Shown: one piece after another, positions 31,590 through 57,710 of the stretch | How positions within the stretch are numbered: the stretch's first letter is position 1 | How the letters are laid out: each line of letters opens with the position of its first letter | From: Antarcticibacterium flavum | GTDB lineage: Bacteria > Bacteroidota > Bacteroidia > Flavobacteriales > Flavobacteriaceae | Direction: 5' to 3' | Length of the DNA: 64,000 nucleotides | Assembly: GCF_006159205.1 (NCBI RefSeq) | Contig: NZ_CP040812.1 | Location: forward strand, 1,984,001-2,048,000 | Notes under the pieces: generated by a model | Told to the model about the DNA's origin: nothing | The model's database searches: none | The model's input: only the letters and a program-made list of their open reading frames with translations | Position numbers and translations under genes: made by a program

Positions 31590-31660
31590 GATTTCGTAAT
31601 TAATTGGATGCTAGTATAATATATGAAATAAAGTGGAGAATGGAAAGTCTGGACGCAGCC

Positions 31661-32280
31661 CCCTAACCCCAAAGGGGGAACAAAAAAATCGTTGTGCCTC
31701 AAGGTCGCTGTGTAATCCTTTTTCCTCCGTCCAACTCCTATTTAAATCTACTTTAAAAAGTCTGTGGTTAAATAAAATTTGCATCGAGAAAATGAGAAAC
31801 AGTCTCCAAATCAAAGCCCCAACGGAAAACAGAAAACGGTAAACGCCAAACTGCTGGCTTCTGCGTAATCCGCTAAAATCCATAATCCAGTTGCCTCCGT
31901 GAAACTCCTTTTTCAACTCCCTTTAAACTCTGTGGTTAAATTACAAATAACCTCGAAAAAATGAAAAACCCCCTAACCCCAAAGGGGGAACAAAAAAATC
32001 GTTGTGCCTCAAGGTCGCTGTGTAATCCTTTTTCCTCCGTCCAACTCCTATTTAAATCTACTTTAAAAAGTCTGTGGTTAAATAAAATTTGCATCGAGAA
32101 AATGAGAAACAGTCTCCAAATCAAAGCCCCAACGGAAAACAGAAAACGGTAAACGCCAAACTGCTGGCTTCTGCGTAATCCGCTAAAATCCATAATCCAG
32201 TTGCCTCCGTGAAACTCCTTTTTCAACTCCCTTTAAACTCTGTGGTTAAATAACAAATAACCTCGAAAAAATGAAAAGCC
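31661..32280. repeat. 310-bp perfect-phase tandem duplication
   Basis: 31661-31970 is repeated at 31971-32280 with only about two mismatches (TTACAAATAA/TAACAAATAA and AAAAACC/AAAAGCC near the end). Each unit contains CCCCAAAGGGGG, reversed ACGGAG modules, CATCGAGAAAATGAGAAAC and CGGAAAACAGAAAACGG heptamers. A third unit begins at 32281 but diverges after about 30 bp. The near identity shows a recent event. Frames inside are not genes. Confidence 0.93.
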
Positions 32281-33366: not shown

Positions 33367-33798
33367 ATGCAAGATACCAAGCAACTCAAATATGACAAGG
33401 CCTACCTGCGCATAGCCCGGGAATGGGGGAAGCTTTCCCACTGTAAAAGAAAGCAGGTTGGCGCACTTATTGTGAAAGACAGGATGATAATTTCCGACGG
33501 ATATAACGGTACCCCCACCGGTTTTGAGAATTTTTGTGAGGATGAAGAGGGTTATACAAAATGGTACGTACTTCACGCTGAAGCAAATGCCATCCTTAAG
33601 GTAGCTTCCTCTACACAATCCTGCCAGGGTGCAACCTTATACATTACCATGTCCCCTTGCAAGGAATGCAGCAAACTCATTCACCAAAGCGGGATCACCC
33701 GGGTGGTGTATCAAATAGATTATAAAGACAATTCTGGCCTTGATTTTTTACAAAAGGCCGGGGTTAAATTACAACAGGTAACAGAGCTTGATACTTAA
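33367..33798 (+). CDS. Deoxycytidylate (dCMP) deaminase family protein
   Basis: 143 residues. Zinc-dependent deaminase motifs: HAE at 70-72 (proton shuttle Glu 72) and SPCKEC with Cys 98 and Cys 101. The extra N-terminal region with SHCKRKQVGALIVKD and NGTPTGFENF is typical of dCMP deaminases (ComEB-like), which make dUMP for thymidylate synthesis. The S41 protease gene starts immediately after its stop codon, so the two are co-transcribed. Confidence 0.9.
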   Translation: MQDTKQLKYDKAYLRIAREWGKLSHCKRKQVGALIVKDRMIISDGYNGTPTGFENFCEDEEGYTKWYVLHAEANAILKVASSTQSCQGATLYITMSPCKECSKLIHQSGITRVVYQIDYKDNSGLDFLQKAGVKLQQVTELDT

Positions 33799-40800: not shown

Positions 40801-40867
40801 GCCCTTACCCCACTAATTTTTAAAGGGATCCAAAGAATGTAGTTTTAATATTTTAAAGATGTACACC

Positions 40868-41692
40868 ATGAAAAAAGTACTAATAACAGGAATCTTAGTG
40901 GCCTTTTGCGCCCTGCCGTTACAAGCGCAGTTTTTAAAGAAGCTTCAGAAAAAAGTGGAGCAAAGGGTTGAAAACACAGTCACCAATAAGGTGGCCGACA
41001 AGGCTGCTGCAGAGGCAGGAAAGTCAATGGATAACATGCTGAATTTTGACTTTGGAAAAACCGGCTTTGCTCCAGGTTTTGAAATGGTGGATGTGGCCGA
41101 GGTGCCGGAGGTGTATGAATTTGAATGGCGCTATGTTATGACTATGAACACTGCCCAGGGGGATATGGAGATGGAATACTTTCTTAAAAAAGATGCCCCC
41201 TATTTTGGAATTCGCATGCCGCAAAATGATGTTTTTATGGTGATGGACCACAAGAGGCAAATGAATGTGATGTACATGAATTCCGGGGAAAACAAAATGG
41301 TCATGGCAACAAAAATGCCTGAACTAACGGCTGAAGATATGAAGGAGGCTGAAGAGTACAACGAGGAAATGTCATTTAAACCCATAGGAAGTAAAGAGAT
41401 CCTGGGTTATGACTGCAAGGGTTTCCAGGCAGAGAATGAGGATATGGTCTATACCTTTTATGTAACCTCAGAGCCGGAAATAAGTTTTAATGACATCTAC
41501 AGGAATGAAAACACACAGCTCCCTAAAGGATTTGATCCGCAATGGCTGGAAGATGCAAATGGACTTATGATGCAAATGATCATGGAGGGCAAGAAAAAAG
41601 CAAAGGAGAACGTCTCAATGACCTGCACTGCATTGGAGAAAAAACCCTTCAGCATCCAAAAGAATGAATACAAGAGTATGGCAGGAGAATAA
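40868..41692 (+). CDS. DUF4412 family exported protein
   Basis: 274 residues from ATG 40868 (an ATG 9 nt earlier is possible). The signal peptide ends QAQ. A lysine-rich helix (FLKKLQKKVEQRVENTVTNK) is followed by a DUF4412-like domain: YEFEWRYVMTMNTAQGDMEM, IGSKEILGYDCKGFQAENED, and a methionine-rich body. Such proteins are probably periplasmic; no activity is known. A strong terminator follows. Confidence 0.75.
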   Translation: MKKVLITGILVAFCALPLQAQFLKKLQKKVEQRVENTVTNKVADKAAAEAGKSMDNMLNFDFGKTGFAPGFEMVDVAEVPEVYEFEWRYVMTMNTAQGDMEMEYFLKKDAPYFGIRMPQNDVFMVMDHKRQMNVMYMNSGENKMVMATKMPELTAEDMKEAEEYNEEMSFKPIGSKEILGYDCKGFQAENEDMVYTFYVTSEPEISFNDIYRNENTQLPKGFDPQWLEDANGLMMQMIMEGKKKAKENVSMTCTALEKKPFSIQKNEYKSMAGE

Positions 41693-41748: not shown

Positions 41749-42046
41749 CGATTTTGTAAATAACAAAACAAAGGAAGGGGTATTATCCTGGACCTCAACC
41801 AAATGACCCTCAACACTTGTTAAAAATTAATTGAACCTATTTTTATAATCTTTAAAATATATTTGTTTGGAAATCAGCGTTTTGATCCTTTAAAAGCCTT
41901 AAAACAGCATCCAAAATTTCCTGTTTTATGTTAAAAACTTTGTTGAAAACGTTTGCCGGAGTCTCTCCTTTTACCTGATATTAATTTTCATATTTGTTAA
42001 AGCCAAAATCAATACGGCTGATAATCAATACGAAACGGGTCTAAAA
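41749..42046. other. Leader region of the R2-like gene
   Basis: AT-rich, no repeat modules. TATATTTG (41858-41865) resembles a -7 box, but the nearest TTG is 24 bp upstream, so the promoter call is weak. No NrdR-box pair is evident. Confidence 0.35.
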
Positions 42047-43006
42047 ATGCCAAATAAGGAACCTATTCTCAAGGACAACAAAGACAGATTTGTAATTTTT
42101 CCTGTAAAACACAATGATATTTGGGACTGGTTCAAGCAAGCACAGGCCACCTTCTGGACTGCTGAAGAAATAGACTTCCATCAGGACGTGCAGGACTGGA
42201 ATACCAAACTCTCCAGCCGCGAACAAAATTATCTTAAACAATTACTGGCATTCATGGCTGCTTCACAGGACTTGAGCCGTAATTTAACCGCGTCCTTAAA
42301 TACTGAAATAAAGGAGCCGGGGTCAGGATCATTTTTTGGTTTCCAGCAAATGATGGAAAACACTTACCGGGAAACTTTCTCTATGCTTTTGAATATTTAC
42401 ATTCCCGAAGAAGCAGAATATGAGGAGCTGCCAGAGAAGGTAACCTCTTCCAAAACATTTATCGAAAGATCAAATTGGCAGGCTGCTTTTGAGACCGCAG
42501 CATTTGCCGAAAGACTGGTTGCGATGGCTGCTTTAAAAGGGATTTTCTCTACGGGAACCGCTTGTGTTATTAACAGGTTGAAGAACCGCAATCTGCTCCC
42601 GGGATTAACTTATGCGGGAAACCTAATTGCAAGGGACCTTGAGACCCACAGGGATTTCGCCTGTTACTTGCATAACAATCATTTGACAAACAGGGTGAGC
42701 AAGGCCAGGATACGCGAGATCCTCCTGCAGGCTCACAGGATAGAAGAACAATTTTTCACCTCCTGCCTTCCAATTAATATGAGCGGCCTTAGTCCCGCTG
42801 CCACCACACAGCATTTAGAATTTGTTACCGATGCTTTGTTGGAAGCCTTTGGTTGTGAAAAGGAATTCGGCAGTGAAAGCCCTTATGCTTTTATGAACAA
42901 TACCCCCTCTCCACAGGTGGGAATCCTGGAAAGGAGAGCAGGAGAATTGAAAAAGACAACTAAAGAACAGGATACTAATAAGATAAACCAGAATACCGGT
43001 CATTAG
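42047..43006 (+). CDS. Ribonucleotide reductase R2-like protein with degenerate active site
   Basis: 319 residues, clearly homologous to class I R2 (NrdB) along its length: WTAEEIDFHQD 37-47, FGFQQMMEN 97-105, FAERLVAMAAL 153-163, LLPGLTYAGNLIARD 183-197. The catalytic residues are altered. The first carboxylate position is Gln 74 (Asp 75 is next to it), Glu 104 is kept, the first His is Tyr 107, the radical Tyr is Phe 111, Glu 155 is kept, the next Glu is Leu 198, and His 201 is kept. The acidic/aromatic C-terminal tail that binds R1 is absent (end KINQNTGH). No nrdA is nearby. It cannot work as a standard tyrosyl-radical R2; a regulatory or new role is inferred. The frame is intact. Confidence 0.85.
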   Translation: MPNKEPILKDNKDRFVIFPVKHNDIWDWFKQAQATFWTAEEIDFHQDVQDWNTKLSSREQNYLKQLLAFMAASQDLSRNLTASLNTEIKEPGSGSFFGFQQMMENTYRETFSMLLNIYIPEEAEYEELPEKVTSSKTFIERSNWQAAFETAAFAERLVAMAALKGIFSTGTACVINRLKNRNLLPGLTYAGNLIARDLETHRDFACYLHNNHLTNRVSKARIREILLQAHRIEEQFFTSCLPINMSGLSPAATTQHLEFVTDALLEAFGCEKEFGSESPYAFMNNTPSPQVGILERRAGELKKTTKEQDTNKINQNTGH

Positions 43007-43056: not shown

Positions 43057-43131
43057 AACGAATAGAGATGCGGAAACAGGGAAAACCGCACCTAAAGATT
43101 TTATCCCCCGACAAATAATGTCAATTACCTT

Positions 43132-43167
43132 AAAAAGGGAAGTATTCGAGAGTTTACTTCCCTTTTT
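43132..43167 (+). terminator. Terminator upstream of dgt
   Basis: AAAAAGGGAAGTA and TACTTCCCTTTTT form a 13-bp stem with a 10-nt loop, followed by TATTATTTTT. It separates the R2-like gene from dgt. Confidence 0.8.
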
Positions 43168-43243
43168 TATTATTTTTGGCAGCCGGGCAAAAATACCTGC
43201 AGCAGGGAAATGAAAGGGATAATTCAAATAAAATAGCACAATA

Positions 43244-44590
43244 ATGATGAACTGGGAACAGCTCCTTTCTCTAAAGAGATATGGAGATAAAAACAAAAGG
43301 TTACGCAAGGAACAAAATGAGACCCGGCTGGGTTTTGAAGTAGATTATGACAGGATCATCTTCTCCCAGGCATTTCGAAGTTTGCAGGACAAGACCCAGG
43401 TCATCCCCCTTTCAAAAACAGATTTTGTTCACACCCGCCTTACCCATAGTTTGGAAGTATCTGTAGTGGGACGTTCCCTGGGCAGGCTGGCAGGACAAAA
43501 GATCCTGGAAAAGCACCCGCACCTTAACACCATCCACGGTTACCAGATGAATGATTTTGGCGCTATAGTAGCCGCAGCTTCCCTGGCACACGATATTGGG
43601 AATCCGCCGTTTGGACATTCGGGTGAAAAGGCGATTGGAGAATATTTCAGCCTTGGAAATGGCAAACGATTTAAAGACCGGCTTACCGCAGGAGAATATG
43701 AGGACCTCATCAGGTTTGAAGGAAATGCAAACGGCTTTAAAATCCTTACCCAGACCCGGCCCGGGATTGAAGGAGGTATACGCCTGTCCTATGCCACCCT
43801 GGGAGCATTTATAAAATACCCAAAGGAATCCCTTCCGCATAGACCCACCCGAAATATAGGTGATAAGAAATTCGGCATCTTTCAAACCGAGAAAGAGATA
43901 TTTGAGGAAGTGGCTGGAGAACTAGGGCTTTTACAGGTGAGAAAAGGAGAACAGGTAGCTTTTGCAAGACATCCACTCGCGTTCCTTGTGGAGGCTGCAG
44001 ATGATATTTGTTATACCATCATTGATTTTGAGGATGGGATCAATTTAGGCCTTATCGATGAGGAATATGCCCTGGAATATCTCATTAAGCTGGTAAAGAA
44101 CAGCATCAATACTGCCAAATACAATGCCCTTACCAATACTGCCGACAGGCTTAGCTACCTGCGGGCACTGGCCATTAATACTCTTATAACCGAAGCGGTA
44201 GAGATCTTCCTGAAGAATGAGGAGGCTATCCTCAAGGGCGAATTTCACGAATCCCTTTTTGATAAGAGCAGCTATGAAGCCCAGATCAAGGATATTATAA
44301 AAATAAGCGTGGAAAAGATCTACCAGAGCGAAGAGGTGATCAATAAGGAGATTGCCGGCTATAAAATGCTCTCCCACCTGCTGGACACTTATACCAGTGC
44401 TTTCCTTCCCGCCAGCCCTGAGGAAGAGGATTCCAATTTTAATGGCCTGGTAAGAAAATCTGTAGCAAGATTAAATCCAGGGGAAGGATCTGTTTACAAC
44501 ACCCTCCTGGAAATATGCTCCTATACCGCTTCGCTTACAGATGGGTTTACGGTGGCGTCGTTTGAAAAATATAAAGGGTTGAGATTGTGA
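43244..44590 (+). CDS. dgt: Deoxyguanosinetriphosphate triphosphohydrolase-like protein
   Basis: 448 residues of the HD superfamily. The metal-binding residues are visible: His 68 in RLTHSLEV, HD 116-117 in SLAHDIGNPPFGHSGE, and the distal Asp in VEAADDICYTIIDFEDG near 250. Dgt-type enzymes split dNTPs into nucleoside and tripolyphosphate, controlling dNTP pools and phage growth. The length is normal for the type-1 subfamily. A start 3 nt later (second Met) is equally possible. Its stop is followed by NNCAAGA heptamers. Confidence 0.92.
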   Translation: MMNWEQLLSLKRYGDKNKRLRKEQNETRLGFEVDYDRIIFSQAFRSLQDKTQVIPLSKTDFVHTRLTHSLEVSVVGRSLGRLAGQKILEKHPHLNTIHGYQMNDFGAIVAAASLAHDIGNPPFGHSGEKAIGEYFSLGNGKRFKDRLTAGEYEDLIRFEGNANGFKILTQTRPGIEGGIRLSYATLGAFIKYPKESLPHRPTRNIGDKKFGIFQTEKEIFEEVAGELGLLQVRKGEQVAFARHPLAFLVEAADDICYTIIDFEDGINLGLIDEEYALEYLIKLVKNSINTAKYNALTNTADRLSYLRALAINTLITEAVEIFLKNEEAILKGEFHESLFDKSSYEAQIKDIIKISVEKIYQSEEVINKEIAGYKMLSHLLDTYTSAFLPASPEEEDSNFNGLVRKSVARLNPGEGSVYNTLLEICSYTASLTDGFTVASFEKYKGLRL

Positions 44591-49361: not shown

Positions 49362-50762
49362 TTAAATTTTCTTGGCTTCTTCAGGAATATCCCACATATC
49401 CTCCAGCTCTTCCAGGGTTTTCCCTTTGGTTTCAGGTATGTATTTATAGGTGAAAATGATTATCCCTAAAATGAATACTGAGAAGATAAAATATGGCAGG
49501 GAGCCACTCCAGAAATCGCTTCGGTTCAACTCACTTTCAGCAACCATAGGGAAGGTTTGCGTTACCACGTAATTGGCTGCCCACTGTGCTGCAACGGCAA
49601 TAGACATAGCGATACTCCTCATATTGTTGGGGAACATTTCAGAAAGGATCACCCATACCACAGGACCCATAGACATCGCAAATGAGGCGATGAAAAGTAA
49701 TACCCCAATGAGGGATAGTAGACCTACCGAGTTGCTCATAAGGGTTGCCCCAAGGAGAAGGAATCCTGCCAGCATCCCAACTGCACCTATATAAATAAGC
49801 GGTTTTCTTCCAAATTTATCTACGGTTGCCATTGCCACGAAGGTGAATACAAGGTTGATCCCGGCGAGAAGCACCTGCTGCTGCAGTACATCTTCCTGAC
49901 CGAAGCCAAGGGCACTCTCAAAAATATCGGCTCCGTAATATAACACGGCATTGATACCGGTGAATTGCTGCAGGACAGAAAGGACCGTACCTATAACTAT
50001 TATAGCAAAAACACCCTTCGCAAATATGTTTAGCTTGTTCTTTTGCTTATCGCGGGCTATGGATTTCTCTATTTCTTTGATTTCAAAATCGGCCACCTCT
50101 TTCCCGTGTATCCTCGTGAGCACCTTATAAGCTTCAGAATTAAGCCCTTTGATTGCCAGCCATCGCGGACTTTTAGGCACAAAGAAAAGCAGGACCAGGA
50201 AGAGCGTACTGGGAATGAGCTCGCTCCATAGCATATACCTCCATCCAAATTCAATATTCTCTGCCTCTGTAGCACTGCTACCAATAAAATATGTAACCAG
50301 GAATACCACGAAGAAACCTACTACAATTGCCAGTTGATAATAACTTACAAGAGTACCTCTAATCTTTGCGGGAGCGATCTCTGCGATATAAGTGGGTGCA
50401 TTCATTGATGCTATCCCTATCCCCAGACCACCCAATAACCTAAAGACCACAAGCAGGGAAACAGACTCTGGTAAGAACGCAGGCAAACCAGATCCCCAGG
50501 CTGAAAGTGAAAAAAGCACTGCCGAGATTATTAGGGAGTACTTCCTTCCTATGGCTTTACTTATTGGTCCGGCGACGATAGCACCTGCAAAACAACCCAG
50601 CAGGGCACTACCTACAACCCACCCCTTCATCCCGGGGTCAAGATCAAAATACTGACTAAAATAATATTGCGATCCATTGATAACCCCTGTGTCATAACCA
50701 AATAATAAGCCTCCAAGAGCAGAGACAATGGTGATAAGGATCAAATAAGTTTTATTCTTCAT
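49362..50762 (-). CDS. MFS sugar porter, utilisation-locus transporter
   Basis: 466 residues, 12 membrane helices. Sugar-porter signatures: LFGYDTGVINGS (20-31), GRKYSLI, FRLLGGLGIGIASM, PKSPRWL, QQFTGINAVLYY, VDKFGRKPLI and PETKGKTLEEL near the end. It probably moves glucose across the inner membrane with protons. As the last gene of the minus-strand utilisation operon it imports the monosaccharide released by the GH3 enzyme. Confidence 0.93.
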   Translation of the reverse strand: MKNKTYLILITIVSALGGLLFGYDTGVINGSQYYFSQYFDLDPGMKGWVVGSALLGCFAGAIVAGPISKAIGRKYSLIISAVLFSLSAWGSGLPAFLPESVSLLVVFRLLGGLGIGIASMNAPTYIAEIAPAKIRGTLVSYYQLAIVVGFFVVFLVTYFIGSSATEAENIEFGWRYMLWSELIPSTLFLVLLFFVPKSPRWLAIKGLNSEAYKVLTRIHGKEVADFEIKEIEKSIARDKQKNKLNIFAKGVFAIIVIGTVLSVLQQFTGINAVLYYGADIFESALGFGQEDVLQQQVLLAGINLVFTFVAMATVDKFGRKPLIYIGAVGMLAGFLLLGATLMSNSVGLLSLIGVLLFIASFAMSMGPVVWVILSEMFPNNMRSIAMSIAVAAQWAANYVVTQTFPMVAESELNRSDFWSGSLPYFIFSVFILGIIIFTYKYIPETKGKTLEELEDMWDIPEEAKKI

Positions 50763-50812
50763 AGGTAGGAATTAAGAGAGGCTTAAAACTAATTAAAAAA
50801 TTTGGCAATAAG

Positions 50813-51574
50813 CTACTCCTGCGTCACTTTGATATAATCAACATAGAATTTTACAGGAAATATAGTGTCATCCACCTCCGGGCCGCCAAAGTTCCCTCCC
50901 ACGGCCATGTTGATAAGGAAATAGAAAGGATGGCGAAAGGGGTAATGTTCCTCATCATAAACCTTTGGCGTAAATGTATACACATGCTCCCCATCAATAT
51001 AATATTGAATATCATCTTTTGTCCATACGGTTTTAAAGGTATGATAGCCTTCTTCAATATCCTCGATAAAGGTTTTCTTCGAATTTTCAGTATCCCCGTG
51101 GCTGGCAGGAGTGTGCAGGGAAGAATATATGGTATGCGGCTCCCGCCCAACATATTCCATAAGATCTATCTCTCCTGAAGCTGGCCAGCCCACTTCTCCT
51201 ATATTAGTACCCAGCATCCATACTGCAGGCCAGATACCGTGACCCTGTGGCAATTTCAAACGGGTTTCAATGGTGCCATATTGGAATTCCATTTTATCCT
51301 TCGAATTTATTTTGGCTGAGTAATATTTATCTCCATCCTTCACAGCCGTAATGACCAGCTTGCCATCTTCCACACTTAGATAATCCCGGCTGTAGATTTG
51401 TCGCTCGTTATTTCCCCAGCCACAAAGATTAGGACACCCATCACCCTCTTCGTGATTCCACTTTGTCATATCCAGGCTGTCCCCTTCAAAATTATCTTCA
51501 AACAGTACCTGGGCGGGTGATGTGAGACTCAAACAAAGGGCAAGAGCTGTAAATATTAGATTCCTGTTATTCAT
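50813..51574 (-). CDS. GH16 endo-beta-1,3-glucanase (laminarinase-like)
   Basis: 253 residues: signal peptide (about 1-21), then one GH16 domain. The catalytic motif GEIDLME has the nucleophile Glu 135, the helper Asp 137 and the acid/base Glu 140, preceded by WPAVWMLG. The SPAQ end of the signal lacks a lipobox Cys, so the enzyme is probably periplasmic. It lies 3 bp after the GH3 gene. Confidence 0.93.
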   Translation of the reverse strand: MNNRNLIFTALALCLSLTSPAQVLFEDNFEGDSLDMTKWNHEEGDGCPNLCGWGNNERQIYSRDYLSVEDGKLVITAVKDGDKYYSAKINSKDKMEFQYGTIETRLKLPQGHGIWPAVWMLGTNIGEVGWPASGEIDLMEYVGREPHTIYSSLHTPASHGDTENSKKTFIEDIEEGYHTFKTVWTKDDIQYYIDGEHVYTFTPKVYDEEHYPFRHPFYFLINMAVGGNFGGPEVDDTIFPVKFYVDYIKVTQE

Positions 51575-51577
51575 CTA

Positions 51578-53854
51578 TTATTTTTTTAAAGTAAATGTTG
51601 TTTTCTTTAGGTCCCGTGAGTTTCCTCCCGTCATAACTTCAAATTCCCCTGCTTCTGCTTCCCACTTTTTGTTGGCGCTATAAAACTGAAGCATTGGTTC
51701 CTCAATGGTGAAAGTTACAGTTTTTGACTCTCCCGGCTCCAGGTCCACAAGTTGAAAATCTTTTAATTCCTTAACCGGGCGGGTGGTGCTTGCAACAAGA
51801 TCTCTAATATATAGCTGAACCACTTCTCTTCCTTTTACCTTGCCCGTGTTCTTTAAATTCACCCTCACCTCCAGGTTACCACTTACCGTGATCTCTTTTG
51901 CTGAAAGTTGTGGTTCGCCATATTCAAAGGTAGTATAGCTTAAACCAAACCCAAAAGGATAAAGAGCGTCATTTTTTTCATCGGTATATGCTGAATAGGT
52001 TACATGTTCAGCGCTGTATGGCCTTCCTGTATTCTTTTGATTATAATATAAAGGCTCCTGTCCCACTGCTCTTGGAAATGAAACCGGAAGTTTTCCTGAC
52101 GGATTATAGTTTCCAAAAAGCACATCGGCAATCGCATTTCCGCTTTCTGAACCAAGCTGCCAGGCTACAAGTACTGCCGGTACCTCTTCACTTGCTTTGG
52201 AGATCTCCAGGGGCCTTCCATTGATAAGTACAAGCACAATATTTTCGTTTACTTCACGTATCGCCTTCAGCAATTCCTGTTGCACCCCTGCAAGGCCAAT
52301 ATTCACCTGGCTGCGGCCTTCCCCACTTTGGAAAGCATCTTCTCCAAGGGCCATTACTACTAGATCTGCCTTACGGGCTACCTCAACAGCTTCAGCAAAG
52401 CCAGACGTATCTGTCTTATTGATCTTGAGTGGCATTAAGAAACTGCGCTCCCCCATTCCAAGATCGGCTCCTTTGGCGTAAGTTACATTTACATCCTTAC
52501 CTGCCGCATTGCGAACTCCTTCAAGAACAGATACAGCAGAATTTGCTTCTCCCTGTCCTCTCCAGTTCCCTATCGGGGTGTCCTTATCATCTGCCAGAGG
52601 TCCTATCACTGCTATATTTTTTACAGTTGATGCAAGTGGCAAAACATTATTCTCATTCTTTAAAAGTACAATTGACTTCCTCGCTATATCGCGGGCAACT
52701 TTTCTGTGATCCTCGTAGGAGATGGATTTGATGGTTTCAGGATTAGAATAACGGTAGGGATCTTCAAAAAGTCCCATTTTGAACTTGATACGCAAGATCC
52801 TTTTTACAGAATCATCTATTAGGGATTCATCCAGATTTCCTTCTTCCACAAGTTCCTTTAGCCCCACTTCATAGGCGCCACCTTCCATATCCATATCACT
52901 ACCGGCTTTTAAGGCAATTTCAGCAGCGTGTTTACGATCCCTGGCAAAGCCGTGATCTATCATTTCAGATATCGAAGCCCAGTCTGAAACTATGAATCCG
53001 TCCCAGTTCCAATCTCCTTTTAGCACATCCCGCTGCAGGACCTTATGGCCAGTTGCCGGGGTACCGTCTATGTCATTGAAGGCATTCATCACCGTGGCAA
53101 CTCCCGCATCTGCCGCAGCTTTGAAGGGTGGAAGCAGGGTGTTGTGAAGTTCATTCTCTCCAATGTGCACGGTATTGTAATCACGTCCTGCCTCAGCAAA
53201 ACCGTAACCAACAAAGTGCTTGGCGGTAGCAGCGATGGTATGAGGATTTGCAAGGTCATTCCCCTGGTAACCATTCACCTTGGCCACAGCTACTTTGGAG
53301 GTTAGGTAAGGGTCTTCCCCGCTACCTTCCATGATCCTTCCCCAACGGGCATCCCGCGAAATATCTATCATAGGGGAAAAGGTCCAGTTCACCCCATGAG
53401 CCACAGATTCCAGCGCAGCAATTCGTGCCGACTCCTCTGCAGCTTCCATATCCCAGCTGGCAGTTTCTCCCAGGGGCACCGGGAAAATTGTTTTATACCC
53501 ATGGATAACGTCATACCCAAACATCATTGGGATCTTTAAACGGGAATTTTCCATCACCAGTTTTTGGGCGTGGTTAGTGGCTTCAACAGAAAGTACATTG
53601 AGCATGGAGCCCACACGACCATTCTTGATATTTTCTTCTTTTTGCCGGGCATCCATATTGGAAGCCGGTCCTGTTAAGTCCCAGCTACCATTATATTGTA
53701 CCAGCTGCCCTATCTTCTCCTCCAGGGTCATGAGTGCTAGAACCGAGTCTACTTTTTTCTCTACATCCCTTACAGAACTGGGGATGCGGGAATTTTGTCC
53801 CTGTGCCAGGTTAATACCCAGGGCGAACAGGACGAAGAGGCTTATTTTTTTCAT
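51578..53854 (-). CDS. bglX: GH3 beta-glucosidase
   Basis: 758 residues: signal peptide (about 1-19), N-terminal TIM barrel with KHFVGYG (212-218) and nucleophile Asp 291 in IVSDWAS, the alpha/beta sandwich domain (about 400-620, with LALGEDAFQSGEGRS), and a C-terminal fibronectin-type III-like domain. It removes glucose from the non-reducing end of laminarin oligosaccharides in the periplasm. The symbol follows the periplasmic BglX family. Confidence 0.93.
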   Translation of the reverse strand: MKKISLFVLFALGINLAQGQNSRIPSSVRDVEKKVDSVLALMTLEEKIGQLVQYNGSWDLTGPASNMDARQKEENIKNGRVGSMLNVLSVEATNHAQKLVMENSRLKIPMMFGYDVIHGYKTIFPVPLGETASWDMEAAEESARIAALESVAHGVNWTFSPMIDISRDARWGRIMEGSGEDPYLTSKVAVAKVNGYQGNDLANPHTIAATAKHFVGYGFAEAGRDYNTVHIGENELHNTLLPPFKAAADAGVATVMNAFNDIDGTPATGHKVLQRDVLKGDWNWDGFIVSDWASISEMIDHGFARDRKHAAEIALKAGSDMDMEGGAYEVGLKELVEEGNLDESLIDDSVKRILRIKFKMGLFEDPYRYSNPETIKSISYEDHRKVARDIARKSIVLLKNENNVLPLASTVKNIAVIGPLADDKDTPIGNWRGQGEANSAVSVLEGVRNAAGKDVNVTYAKGADLGMGERSFLMPLKINKTDTSGFAEAVEVARKADLVVMALGEDAFQSGEGRSQVNIGLAGVQQELLKAIREVNENIVLVLINGRPLEISKASEEVPAVLVAWQLGSESGNAIADVLFGNYNPSGKLPVSFPRAVGQEPLYYNQKNTGRPYSAEHVTYSAYTDEKNDALYPFGFGLSYTTFEYGEPQLSAKEITVSGNLEVRVNLKNTGKVKGREVVQLYIRDLVASTTRPVKELKDFQLVDLEPGESKTVTFTIEEPMLQFYSANKKWEAEAGEFEVMTGGNSRDLKKTTFTLKK

Positions 53855-53927
53855 TTTGGTGCGTGTTAAGTTAACCGGAGGGAAAAAACCCTCCGGGGAA
53901 CTACTTCAAACAAAAACTAACATTAAA

Positions 53928-55577
53928 CTATTGGTACACCCTTATGTAATCCACTTCCATAGAGGATTCTTCAAAAGCAGGGTCAATTTCACCGCCAAAG
54001 GTTCCTCCCATGGCTACATTAAGGATTAGAAAGAACTCCTGGTTAAAAGATGACGCAGGATCATTGGCATAGGTATGAACCACCTGGTCGTCTACCAGGA
54101 ATACAATTCTTTCCGGAGACCACTCCATGGTATAAATATGGAAATCTGTGCTTACGCCAGGTACTTCCAGGGAGCCACCATCGGCATTACCGCCGGAACG
54201 CCCGGGATAGTGCAGGGTACCATGGATCACATCCTGTTGGTTTCCTACGTGCTCCATAATATCTATCTCCCCGCTCTCTGGCCAGCCAACTTCTCTAAAG
54301 TTGGAGCCCAGCATCCAGATCGCAGGCCAGGTCCCGGCTCCTTCTGGAAGTTTGGCACGTGCTTCCACACGACCATACTGGAACTGGAAATTATTTTCAG
54401 TTGTGATCCTGGAGGAGGTGTAATTGAATCCATCTCTCTCTTCAGCACGGGCAGTGATCACCAGGTTGCCGTCTTCAATAACTGCATTCTCTGTAGTATA
54501 ATATTGCTGCTCCTGGTTACCCCAGCCAGCCTGACCATTTCCGGTTTCAAAATTCCAGATCTCAGTATCAACGGGACCATCGGTATCAAAATCCTGCTCC
54601 CATAAAAGATCGTTGTAAATAGATGTAAATTCATCTGGCTCTTCTTCTCCCTGGGAAGTTGTGAATTTTAAATACCAGGCAAGACCGGGATCATTACCCA
54701 TTATTGCCCTTACGTGCATAAAGGTAGGAGTGATCTCCAGGATCTCAAAAGAACTTGTGCCTATGTAGTAACTCATAAAGCCACCGCCAGAGATATTTAT
54801 TACCGTTCCCACTGTTTGCTCCTCTGAAAGACCGGAACTCGATGGGGAAAGCGAAACATTATAAGAAGTCGCCGGACTAAAATCGAGACATTCATCTTCA
54901 GATCCAGAGCCACCAAAGTCGGGACCGTAAGAAGCATTGTAGAAAGTTTGCCCCATGTTATCATAGGTATAAACAATATTTTCTCCCTCCAGGCTAAAGG
55001 TAAGCTCATCTGTATAAAAACAAGAGCTTACAGGTGCACCTGCCTTTTCAAAAGGAGCTGCGGCATACCAGATAGGGCTTGAAAAACCTTCTCCAGCAGA
55101 TGGCCCCACTCCCAGGTGGCCGGGTTGTGCTGCTGCCACATACCAGGTCTTGGAACTTCCACCGGTTAATAACTGCTTGGTCTCAGGATCGCTGAAATCG
55201 CTAAAAACAGTTACCGTCGTGGTCGTGTTGGCAGAGATCCCGCCGGTGCCCGAAGCTATAACAGTTATTGTATAATCATTGACCCCGTTCTCATTGAAGT
55301 TATGAGTGGTTCTCCCGCTGTGGGATACCTCCTCAAAACCATCGCCATATATGAACTTATAGGTCATTGCATCATCTGCACTTGCAGTGAATTGTACGGC
55401 ACCACTGCCGTCCCCATAGGGATCCTCAGTCGTGGCTCCTACCACCTCTGCTGTTACGCTAAGGCTGGTAGGATTTTTAAGTTCCCCTATGCTATAATCA
55501 TCTTCGACACAACTCATTGCTCCAAAAACAAGAAGCAGCATGAAGAAGGTTCTTTTTATAATTATTAATTTTTCCAT
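53928..55577 (-). CDS. Surface GH16 laminarinase lipoprotein with PKD domain
   Basis: 549 residues. Lipobox GAMSC with Cys 23 followed by acidic residues suggests surface export. A PKD domain (about 35-126) leads to a middle beta domain (about 130-310, unassigned, perhaps glycan-binding) and a GH16 domain (325-549) with GEIDIME: nucleophile Glu 437, Asp 439, acid/base Glu 442. It should make the first cuts in beta-1,3-glucan outside the cell. Its GH16 domain resembles the smaller periplasmic enzyme of the same operon. Confidence 0.92.
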   Translation of the reverse strand: MEKLIIIKRTFFMLLLVFGAMSCVEDDYSIGELKNPTSLSVTAEVVGATTEDPYGDGSGAVQFTASADDAMTYKFIYGDGFEEVSHSGRTTHNFNENGVNDYTITVIASGTGGISANTTTTVTVFSDFSDPETKQLLTGGSSKTWYVAAAQPGHLGVGPSAGEGFSSPIWYAAAPFEKAGAPVSSCFYTDELTFSLEGENIVYTYDNMGQTFYNASYGPDFGGSGSEDECLDFSPATSYNVSLSPSSSGLSEEQTVGTVINISGGGFMSYYIGTSSFEILEITPTFMHVRAIMGNDPGLAWYLKFTTSQGEEEPDEFTSIYNDLLWEQDFDTDGPVDTEIWNFETGNGQAGWGNQEQQYYTTENAVIEDGNLVITARAEERDGFNYTSSRITTENNFQFQYGRVEARAKLPEGAGTWPAIWMLGSNFREVGWPESGEIDIMEHVGNQQDVIHGTLHYPGRSGGNADGGSLEVPGVSTDFHIYTMEWSPERIVFLVDDQVVHTYANDPASSFNQEFFLILNVAMGGTFGGEIDPAFEESSMEVDYIRVYQ

Positions 55578-55598
55578 TATATGTTGTTTTTGATGCTG

Positions 55599-57710
55599 TT
55601 AATTATGAAATAATATATTGTCAACATAGACAGTTCCTTCGCCAGAAGGGTTTCCGGAAAATATGAGCTGCGAAATATTATTTCTTGTGGTAAGCCCTTC
55701 AAAATCCTCAAGCGGAATATCAAGTCTTACCCACTGTCCCTGTGCAGGATTGGAGATGACGATCTCGTGTTCCACATCATCACCACCGCCATCATATACT
55801 CCATTAGGGCCAAAATCCACCAGTTTGATCCTGAATTCTGTAAGATCTGCTGTCCAGAAGTCTACGTGGAAATGTGTCATATCACCTGCATCAATTTGAG
55901 GATTGGTTGTTTCAATGCCTACAAAATTTAGGTTGCTGTACACTTTAACTTCATTCCCTCCCAGAGACACATCTTCGAGCAGCCCGGCAGACCAGCTGGT
56001 CAACCAGGTATCTACAGGAACATTGGTATATGAATCACTGAACATAGAGATCACATTTGCCTCGTCAAAAGTTGGGGCAGCTGCGGCTGCGGTTGGCTCT
56101 GTTGCACCACCACCACCGGTAGATTCTCCTACTGCGATATCGTCAAAATACATGGTTGCCCCTGTACCAGGATTTCCAAAGTCGTAGAATATGATCACCC
56201 TGTCATAATCGATGTCGCTGCTGAAGGCTTCAAAACTTGTAAGGTCAAAATTCATCACTTCCCACTCATTTGAAGTGGTAGTATTCTGGATCACCTCAAC
56301 AACTACTGAAGGATTTCCATTGGCATCTGGTGCTGAGGCTGAATTCTCCATTTTGAACAGGATTGGCACCCCGGCGGCCGGAGACCAAACTTTCATACTT
56401 ATTGTAGTACTCTCTGTAAAATCTACAGGCTCATCAAGGTTTAAAGAAATACCTGCCCAGGTTTCAGCTCCCGAGGATTTGGTGATCTGGGAAACTTTGG
56501 CACTGTTGTTAAGGCCGCTGGCATCTGGATTATCTATTACTGAACCTCCTGCGCCTCCAAAACCTCCCCAGTTGTAGGCAAGGGTTTCAGATTCAAAGGT
56601 AAGTGGCAATTTTACAAGCTCCAGCCTGGTGGTTCTTATATTATCAAAGTAGTAAGTTTCTCCAGTTCCGGATTCTCCAAAGTTAAAGAAGAGGACAACC
56701 CTTCCATAATCTTGTGAAGCATCAACTCCAGACATATCAAATATTAAAGTTTCCCACTGGTTTTCTACTGTGGTAGTCGCAACCGCTTCCACATTAATGT
56801 TGGCATCTCCAAGATTTTCAATCTTGAATATCACATCAGCTCCCGCAACAGGAGACCAAACATCAACGGCGATATATTGATTTGTTGAGAAATCTATAGG
56901 TTCATCAAGGGCAATGGTAGTACCTGCCCACACTTCACTTCCGGCAGGCTTGGTATATGATGCTACTCTTGCACTGGTATTGATCCCGCTAGGATCTGGA
57001 TTATCTATTATTGGTACTCCTGCACCTTCGCCTCCACCAAAATTATTGAAGGTATAGTTAAGAGTTGAAGATTCAAAGTCTATTGGCAGGTATAAAGGAT
57101 CTGTGATCATCACCTCGGTTACCACCTCTGTTGTCGCAGCTCCTCCACTTAAGGCAACTACTCTTACGCTGTAAGTACCTATAGAAGAATAGGTATAGGA
57201 AACGGTTTCCCCCGGCATTAACAGCGCTGGTTCCTCTTCCTCATCCTCTCCAAAATACACCTCATACATAGCAGCATTTTGTGCAGTTGCAGCAACACTT
57301 ATAGTGTAATTGTCTACAGGATCACGAATGATATCCACTTCAAGATTTTCTGGTGCCAGGAAAGAAACGGTTAAAGGCTGTATTCCGGTTGCCGTTTTTC
57401 CATTCACATTGATCCCTGTGATTCCAACTTCGTATTGTCCTTCTTCATAAACATGGGTTACTTTTTCCCCTACCTTTACTTCTTCAGCAACCGGGGAACC
57501 ATCTCCAAAATCCACTTCAAAAAGAACCGCACCTTCTCCCGTTGGGATTATGGTGACCATTCCACTATTGTCCTGCGTTATTTGGAAAGTTGCTCCCAGG
57601 TTGGATGGTGCCTGCAGGCTGTTAAGATCCAGGTGGTCATCGTCCTTATCACAGCCTGTAACTGCTATGACGAAAAGCACCGAAAAGAGTATTTTAAAAT
57701 ATTTTTTCAT
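55599..57710 (-). CDS. Surface glycan-binding lipoprotein with PKD and repeated beta domains
   Basis: 703 residues. Lipobox VTGC (Cys 20) followed by DKDDD suggests outer-membrane surface location. Two PKD-like domains (about 30-200) precede two similar domains of about 165 residues, starting LPIDFESSTLNYTFNNFGGG (near 207) and LPLTFESETLAYNWGGFGGA (near 372), and a third, diverged domain from about 550. Located directly after susD, it occupies the SusE/SusF position and probably binds laminarin. The repeats are carbohydrate-binding-module-like by appearance only. Confidence 0.8.
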   Translation of the reverse strand: MKKYFKILFSVLFVIAVTGCDKDDDHLDLNSLQAPSNLGATFQITQDNSGMVTIIPTGEGAVLFEVDFGDGSPVAEEVKVGEKVTHVYEEGQYEVGITGINVNGKTATGIQPLTVSFLAPENLEVDIIRDPVDNYTISVAATAQNAAMYEVYFGEDEEEEPALLMPGETVSYTYSSIGTYSVRVVALSGGAATTEVVTEVMITDPLYLPIDFESSTLNYTFNNFGGGEGAGVPIIDNPDPSGINTSARVASYTKPAGSEVWAGTTIALDEPIDFSTNQYIAVDVWSPVAGADVIFKIENLGDANINVEAVATTTVENQWETLIFDMSGVDASQDYGRVVLFFNFGESGTGETYYFDNIRTTRLELVKLPLTFESETLAYNWGGFGGAGGSVIDNPDASGLNNSAKVSQITKSSGAETWAGISLNLDEPVDFTESTTISMKVWSPAAGVPILFKMENSASAPDANGNPSVVVEVIQNTTTSNEWEVMNFDLTSFEAFSSDIDYDRVIIFYDFGNPGTGATMYFDDIAVGESTGGGGATEPTAAAAAPTFDEANVISMFSDSYTNVPVDTWLTSWSAGLLEDVSLGGNEVKVYSNLNFVGIETTNPQIDAGDMTHFHVDFWTADLTEFRIKLVDFGPNGVYDGGGDDVEHEIVISNPAQGQWVRLDIPLEDFEGLTTRNNISQLIFSGNPSGEGTVYVDNILFHN

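Follow-up and report, generated by a model that had tools for sequence, protein, structure and literature searches.

A gene in the window (the whole 64,000-nucleotide stretch of Antarcticibacterium flavum DNA analysed here) encodes a small subunit (R2) of ribonucleotide reductase (RNR) that is class Ia, or eukaryote-like, by descent, and we conclude with high confidence that it has been orphaned in place and stripped of its cofactor residues. The best overall explanation, which we regard as probable, is an orphaned, disarmed and presumably metal-free R2 scaffold with a role that does not depend on the large subunit (R1).

The R2 protein and its altered residues

The coordinates of the open reading frame are exact, it contains no internal stop, and its product of 319 residues matches the Pfam model Ribonuc_red_sm (PF00268) over residues 14-277 (E = 7.6e-64; 216 bits against a cut-off of 33.6), in agreement with the initial annotation of an intact eukaryote-like R2 relative. 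Membership of the PF00268 small-chain superfamily is indicated by fold as well as by sequence. The AlphaFold2 model has the R2 fold (pLDDT 80.9), and the closest structures found with it by Foldseek were human and yeast class Ia R2 (best 1.3e-17, TM 0.82); an orphan R2 of Salegentibacter gave a similar outcome (pLDDT 83.5), both models being monomers. The protein is 65-68% identical to five clade mates, which are metagenomic. With canonical Flavobacteriaceae class Ia NrdB it shares fold, length, locus, upstream box, following hairpin and about 47% identity (to the nearest such proteins), but it has none of the three ligands, the radical tyrosine, the docking tail and the partner nrdA of the canonical form.

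The ligand and radical positions, which read D-E-H-Y-E-E-H in canonical flavobacterial NrdB, read Q-E-Y-F-E-L-H in the window protein (Gln74 at the canonical Asp, followed by Glu104, Tyr107, Phe111, Glu155, Leu198 and His201). Compared with the six ligands D/E/H/E/E/H of a functional class Ia R2, the series is Q/E/Y/E/L/H, and three metal ligands (the Asp, a His and the bridging Glu) are missing; the radical tyrosine is Phe111, and the R1-docking tail ISFDADF of canonical proteins is replaced by KINQNTGH. The changes to Tyr107, Phe111 and Leu198, the retained Glu104, Glu155 and His201 and the absent C-terminal tail had all been read correctly from the start. It had also been suggested that the first Asp was either Gln or displaced by one residue. 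The five mates carry the string Q/H-E-H-F-E-L-H, with Gln at the Asp position in four and His in one, and since the mates also lack the Asp, Gln74 is a loss and not a shift. A proposed check of Tyr107, Phe111 and Leu198 across the clade held for the latter two, which are fixed in 6/6 members, but Tyr107 is peculiar to the window protein, the five mates retaining His. From the alignment, loss of the Asp and the Tyr-to-Phe and Glu-to-Leu changes are features of the clade, whereas Tyr107 is not.

Locus, upstream box and reductase complement

Sister genomes from the window's genus (G004, G009 and G011) have nrdB-nrdA-dgt in that order at the same place. At the G011 locus (L153), the broken nrdA occupies three ORFs and dgt two, perhaps because of sequencing errors or early decay of the class Ia RNR. 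The sister species have a CCCC-loop hairpin after nrdB and, after nrdA, a terminator and the dgt promoter. The gap of 237 bases between the window gene and dgt contains both the hairpin and a stretch corresponding to what lies beyond the nrdA stop codon in those species (Table 1). Local alignment of this stretch scored 73 with G004 and 91 with G009, against shuffle maxima of 32 and 47 (0/500 shuffles reached the score in each case), and 68 with G022, a genome of another genus (0/500). The hairpin match was reached by 0/500 shuffles for G009, 14/500 for G004 and 215/500 for G022. These alignments show that nrdA was deleted in place at the window locus. A search for a protein-coding nrdA remnant in the gap gave only a chance-level match (tblastn, best E 0.50), and the non-coding scar is the sole trace of the nrdA side. 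The missing nrdA had gone unseen in the initial annotation, as had its absence beside the degenerate nrdB of Salegentibacter and of one other genus.

Table 1. Features of the window around the orphan R2 gene.
Feature	Position	Strand	Remark
dCMP-deaminase-like gene	33367..33798	+	syntenic, 8 kb upstream of the orphan R2 gene; name by resemblance
Upstream neighbour	40859..41692	+	resembles the gene preceding nrdB in G004, a sister genome
Tandem box TGTTAAAAACTTTGTTGAAAAC	41929..41950	+	also found before canonical nrdBA operons in related genera
Degenerate orphan class Ia R2 (label NrdB*)	42047..43006	+	319 aa
Hairpin, CCCC loop	43015..43050	+	between nrdB and nrdA in sister species; covariation
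Remnant of region after nrdA stop	43098..43178	+	terminator and start of dgt promoter; local alignment
dgt (dGTP triphosphohydrolase family), downstream neighbour	43244..44590	+	TIGR01353 above cut-off

The hairpin occurs at the same spot after nrdB in 17 related loci besides the window, with a nearly invariant CCCC loop. Across these 18 loci, canonical and orphan, 9/10 pairs changed on both sides and 89.4% of cells were paired, where shuffles gave 73.1% and slid controls 24-56%; the alignment omits L079, L081 and L083 (spacers of 279-328 bases), L150 (no such hairpin) and L028. This covariation shows a real RNA element, perhaps one for mRNA processing or protein binding. The one Rfam match near the gene (20.6 bits, gathering score 50) lies over the hairpin on the opposite strand and was taken as chance.

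The neighbouring dgt and dCMP-deaminase-like genes belong to an ancestral neighbourhood that likewise surrounds canonical nrdBA. Their positions had been given correctly, but they amount to inherited synteny and not to evidence for a role in dNTP control, for which they had been cited. Elsewhere in the window, the minus strand carries two nearly identical short tandem ORFs (31611-31916 and 31936-32226; MKKEFHGGNWIMDFSGLRRSQQFGVYRFLF...), a local duplication, and a gene run at 49362-57710 that resembles a laminarin or beta-glucan utilisation locus (names by eye), with two laminarinase-like genes, a beta-glucosidase-like gene and a repeat protein, and an adjoining sugar transporter.

A 22-base tandem box (TGTTRAAAACTTTGTKGAAAAC) is found about 85-100 bases before the start codon of canonical and orphan nrdB genes alike, in upstream regions that otherwise align poorly except at a promoter-like end. 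The window contains an exact match, its only one, and none occurred in 100 shuffles. The box is present in 10/10 canonical loci of three related groups and, at up to 3 mismatches, in 10/13 orphan loci (the misses being L084, L085 and G255), and in 0/18 loci of more distant groups. In a scan of 792,622 bases, some stretches of which were counted twice, the only other matches, with 3 mismatches each, preceded the window genome's class Id nrdB (L025:4959-4980, about 300 bases upstream) and a class Id remnant in G022. The match at class Id nrdB suggests a shared control of class I RNR genes; no box was found upstream of class Id nrdB in G255. The box may resemble tandem DnaA boxes (TGTTGAAAA / TGTGGAAAA). 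With a putative 16-base NrdR consensus and up to 4 mismatches, 2/16 RNR genes had weak upstream matches (3-4 mismatches), and the orphan R2 gene had none. In G022, remnants of class Id nrdB and nrdA lie at L154:4011-4579, and a second, full-length class Id copy is located elsewhere in the genome.

The window genome (G000; one contig, 99.99% complete) has two PF00268 genes, the orphan R2 and a 324-residue class Id R2. The nearest solved relatives of the latter are 6cwo (1.3e-156) and 8dq4 (6.3e-156), the second titled as class Id of Flavobacterium johnsoniae, and its gene adjoins that of a 569-residue R1. A class II NrdJ (TIGR02504, 570.9 bits against a cut-off of 399.95) is the third RNR. The search for a canonical nrdAB elsewhere in the genome, advised in the initial annotation, found no class Ia R1 (NrdA) that could be the cognate partner, and the other class I R2, whose absence would have counted against the original proposal, is the class Id protein. 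The two ends of the G000 contig repeat each other (99.8% identity over the 13 kb compared), so that NrdJ was found twice; this is probably an untrimmed circular assembly with an overlap of about 34.6 kb, judged by offset.

In Salegentibacter, a relative of the window's bacterium, genome G046 (100% complete) goes further. Its only R1-type match is NrdJ, 83% identical to that of the window genome, and its only R2-type match is the degenerate R2, with no class Id R2. Because class II is the sole RNR of G046, its R2 exists without a class I R1, and by this example the degenerate R2 needs no class I partner. The same pattern was seen in G421, a 2.0-Mb assembly whose completeness is not stated. Class Id R2 was detected in 9 of the 11 Salegentibacter assemblies examined (82-84% identical to that of the window genome) and in G255 (74%).

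Distribution and origin of the degenerate R2s

Among 397 genomes of the family, this R2 was found in 295 (E <= 1e-30) and class Ia R1 in 294 (E <= 1e-150); since each of the 295 shows one match, no genome was seen with both forms of R2. The R2 occurs without class Ia R1 in four genomes (G000, G046, G255 and G271, the last with the coordinates of G418, the genome of L083), and the bridging Glu is replaced in 4/4; class Ia R1 occurs without the R2 in three (G096, G121 and G126; 64-95% complete). A scan of GTDB species gave 33 related loci, 10 of them from Salegentibacter, and the bridging Glu is Lys in all 10 as well as in G046. In a set of 15 Salegentibacter genomes, the gene is present in 13, with Lys in 13/13 and internal stops in 0/13 (L204 being, by its coordinates, G046 again). 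Because dgt starts 205-334 bases 3' of the degenerate nrdB in 13/13 loci, these loci have no room for nrdA; the genome-wide search for class Ia R1 covered 11 of these 13 genomes. The remaining two of the 15 lack the gene, without trace beside dgt, and it is therefore dispensable there. Ten genomes without the R2, these two included, show no trace of one within about 1.5 kb of dgt. The gene can thus be lost, and its retention is therefore informative.

One genome of a third genus (G255) also has a degenerate orphan R2. In that genus the R2 is present in 10/12 genomes, that of G255 being the diverged one, and the two lacking it are 74-75% complete. The G255 gene has lost the upstream box, the hairpin and one ligand His, and could be decaying. 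All 24 Christiangramia genomes (24/24) are canonical, and 15/16 genomes of the window's genus have a match, two of them partial. One distant viral match (26% identity) was set aside.

The alignment of 289 proteins, whose make-up is biased by the searches, includes 236 that are canonical at all seven positions. The bridging Glu is Lys in 43, Leu in 6 (the window clade) and Gln in 1, and 3 keep it and differ elsewhere. P0204 differs from the Christiangramia NrdB of L061 at 1 of the seven positions and by 31 differences overall, with the tail almost intact; judging by this protein, Lys may have been the first change. P0075 and P0209, in which the Asp is gone and the Glu retained, speak against a fixed order. 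In Salegentibacter, a first type keeps the radical Tyr and a second has Phe.

The Christiangramia group with Lys nests within its genus (tree supports 100/98 and 97/85), and Lys therefore has at least two separate origins. Most of the remaining degenerate R2s form a group apart from the canonical cluster (97/87) in a tree that omits 22 of 53 deviating rows and for which the tool warned of long branches. This grouping would be expected if one ancient disarmed nrdB had spread between genera and replaced local operons, instead of repeated origin in place, and we accord this alternative real though lesser weight. It is also favoured by AU tests, in which placing G255 with the canonical NrdBs of its own genus was rejected (p 0.006), and by Val20, a residue inside the N-terminal arm shared by 11/12 degenerate lineages and 0/34 canonical rows. 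However, long branches meet in the grouping, a union of the window clade and its own genus was not rejected by the same tests (p 0.17), and the deletion scar matches the window's own genus. The dgt tree (20/25 loci, dgt chosen by key words; L058, L060, L061, L064 and L090 missing) likewise puts the window in its genus with moderate support (85/86), and the Christiangramia Lys group, nested as described and keeping Ile20, implies at least two origins. For the window, an origin in place is well supported by the scar and dgt.

Selection and function

In the 22 closest of 55 possible Salegentibacter pairs, dN/dS is 0.06-0.15 for the degenerate nrdB and 0.02-0.05 for dgt; the former is about 3 to 7 times the latter, which is a real yet looser constraint. 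We conclude with high confidence that selection keeps the gene in Salegentibacter, where these ratios were computed and not for the window clade or G255, and that the same is likely in the window clade; the original statement that the gene is under selection is borne out to that extent.

The constraint is distributed unevenly. The 34 canonical rows share 199 invariant columns. Of these, 22 are retained by at least 95% of the 29 degenerate rows (most known as proteins only; P0075 and P0282, with single ligand changes, excluded), and 11 of the 22 fall within residues 1-38, a segment that contains 20 of the 199 (P 2e-7). The degenerate rows match the canonical consensus with an identity of 0.67 and 0.75 in the first two blocks of 20 residues, against 0.33-0.61 elsewhere, while canonical rows are not unusually strict in those two blocks (0.88 and 0.92). 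The constraint on the arm acts at the protein level: in 28 pairs of Salegentibacter type 1, the first 40 codons have dN 0.057 and dS 1.08 and the remainder dN 0.173 and dS 1.46. The three type 2 pairs show no contrast in dN/dS (0.137 in the arm and 0.130 in the rest; dN 0.033 vs 0.061, dS 0.24 vs 0.47). The strongest conservation of the degenerate R2s thus lies in the N-terminal arm, to which constraint has been relocated, although it could reflect dimer assembly alone.

These results bear directly on slow decay, in which an R2 useless after the loss of nrdA would be a young pseudogene that happens to be open. The number of canonical-invariant columns changed (85/199 in the window clade, 109-116/199 in the Salegentibacter-like types), the two Salegentibacter genomes that have lost the gene without trace and the eroded locus of G255 would all fit such a course. 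The dN/dS ratios, however, show purifying selection and largely refute it in Salegentibacter; moreover, neither the 13 Salegentibacter loci nor the window contain an internal stop, the clades are old and diverged (as the identity of the window protein to its mates shows), the arm is under regional constraint, and the box is retained in most orphan loci. We therefore consider decay unlikely. Isolated, decaying homologues, which would have spoken against the initial annotation, are not what was found: the relatives are not isolated and, in Salegentibacter, not decaying.

Our preferred reading, that of a disarmed scaffold, starts from an ancestral class Ia RNR that lost its large subunit through the in-place deletion of nrdA, class Id and class II RNRs being present in the same genome. 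An R2 that still loaded iron and reacted with oxygen would presumably be a hazard without R1. The remaining R2 would then have been disarmed at its di-metal site, mostly by replacement of the bridging Glu with Lys and, in the window clade, with Leu, either of which should leave the helix bundle folded; the first Asp was usually replaced as well, the Tyr often became Phe, and the docking tail was lost. The product would be an R2-fold protein, probably metal-free and probably still a dimer, that acts as a non-catalytic binding scaffold, is expressed under the old signal of the RNR operon, and has its selected function on the N-terminal arm (residues ~8-38). It may tune the supply of DNA precursors by way of a partner that is not a class I R1, such as class II NrdJ or Dgt. 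A scaffold working through the arm in precursor supply is our best guess, offered tentatively, and the role in dNTP control raised in the initial annotation is possible. On a more speculative view, R2s of this kind may always have had a second, R1-independent function of the arm in precursor supply or replication, and loss of R1 would have left a metal-free standalone regulator with its radical centre switched off, mostly by Lys.

A different chemistry, in which the leftover Glu and His residues hold one metal or a ligand, would make the protein a new enzyme. Glu104, Glu155 and His201 (together with His107 in the mates) are indeed retained in most degenerate proteins, but the Lys that replaces the bridging Glu in most lineages should repel metal, and the arm, not the core, is most constrained. 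R2lox, which is R2-like and believed to work without R1, offers a comparison; it keeps its metal centre, and the window protein falls far below the cut-offs of the NCBIfam R2lox models (best 30.6 bits against 274). Such an enzyme appears improbable.

Yeast Rnr4 (beta-prime), an R2 in which three iron-coordinating residues are changed and which stabilises the centre of Rnr2, is a working precedent for a cofactor-deficient R2 kept for a non-catalytic role (PMC2704937). The orphan R2 might, in the same manner, form a heterodimer with class Id R2 and aid its metal loading, and class Id R2 is present in the window genome, in G255 and in most Salegentibacter assemblies. Against this, Rnr4 works as a dimer with a functional R2, together with an R1, and its partner is a close paralogue, 55% identical (PMC2704937), whereas the orphan R2 has none: G000 offers only the class Id R2, against which the score of eukaryote-type class Ia chains does not exceed 44.9 bits and that of class Id chains is above 290, and G046 has neither a class Id R2 nor a class I R1. 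We regard this arrangement as quite doubtful. The apicomplexan R2_e2 is likewise a divergent R2 that often lacks the radical Tyr, but it is a second R2 in organisms that each also have one orthodox R2, its iron-coordinating residues are kept with few exceptions, and its C-terminus is conserved (PMC3824934).

It is very improbable that the protein is a metal-free radical R2 of the class Ie kind that serves class Id NrdA or class II. In favour of this are the Tyr kept in the first Salegentibacter type and the Lys at the bridging Glu of most degenerate lineages, which in class Ie appears to replace metal site 1 (PMC8463856) and is the third residue of VPK/QSK (PMC11846895). Class Ie R2s, however, have three Glu replaced, retain the Asp and the Tyr and function alongside NrdI and R1, whereas here as a rule one Glu is replaced and the Asp mostly lost, the window clade has Leu (E, E and L at the three Glu) and, like the second Salegentibacter type, Phe, the docking tail is gone, NrdI (PF07972) was found in 0/7 genomes searched, the class Id R1 has its own R2 adjacent, and G046 has no class I R1. 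The initial annotation had already judged that the residue pattern was not that of class Ie.

In the open-access papers searched, subscription journals lying mostly outside the search, we found no bacterial R2 described as both orphaned and cofactor-dead. R2 is regarded as a radical generator that is purposeless without R1. Genomes that lack the cognate R1, one of which relies on class II alone (G046), and whose R2, its cofactor site ruined, has diversified across a genus, constitute a natural experiment for any R1-independent function. In addition, replacement of the bridging Glu by Lys, which marks metal-free class Ie, is seen here to arise in another R2 group. Such proteins are annotated in the database as 'ribonucleotide-diphosphate reductase subunit beta', a label that would mislead metabolic models.
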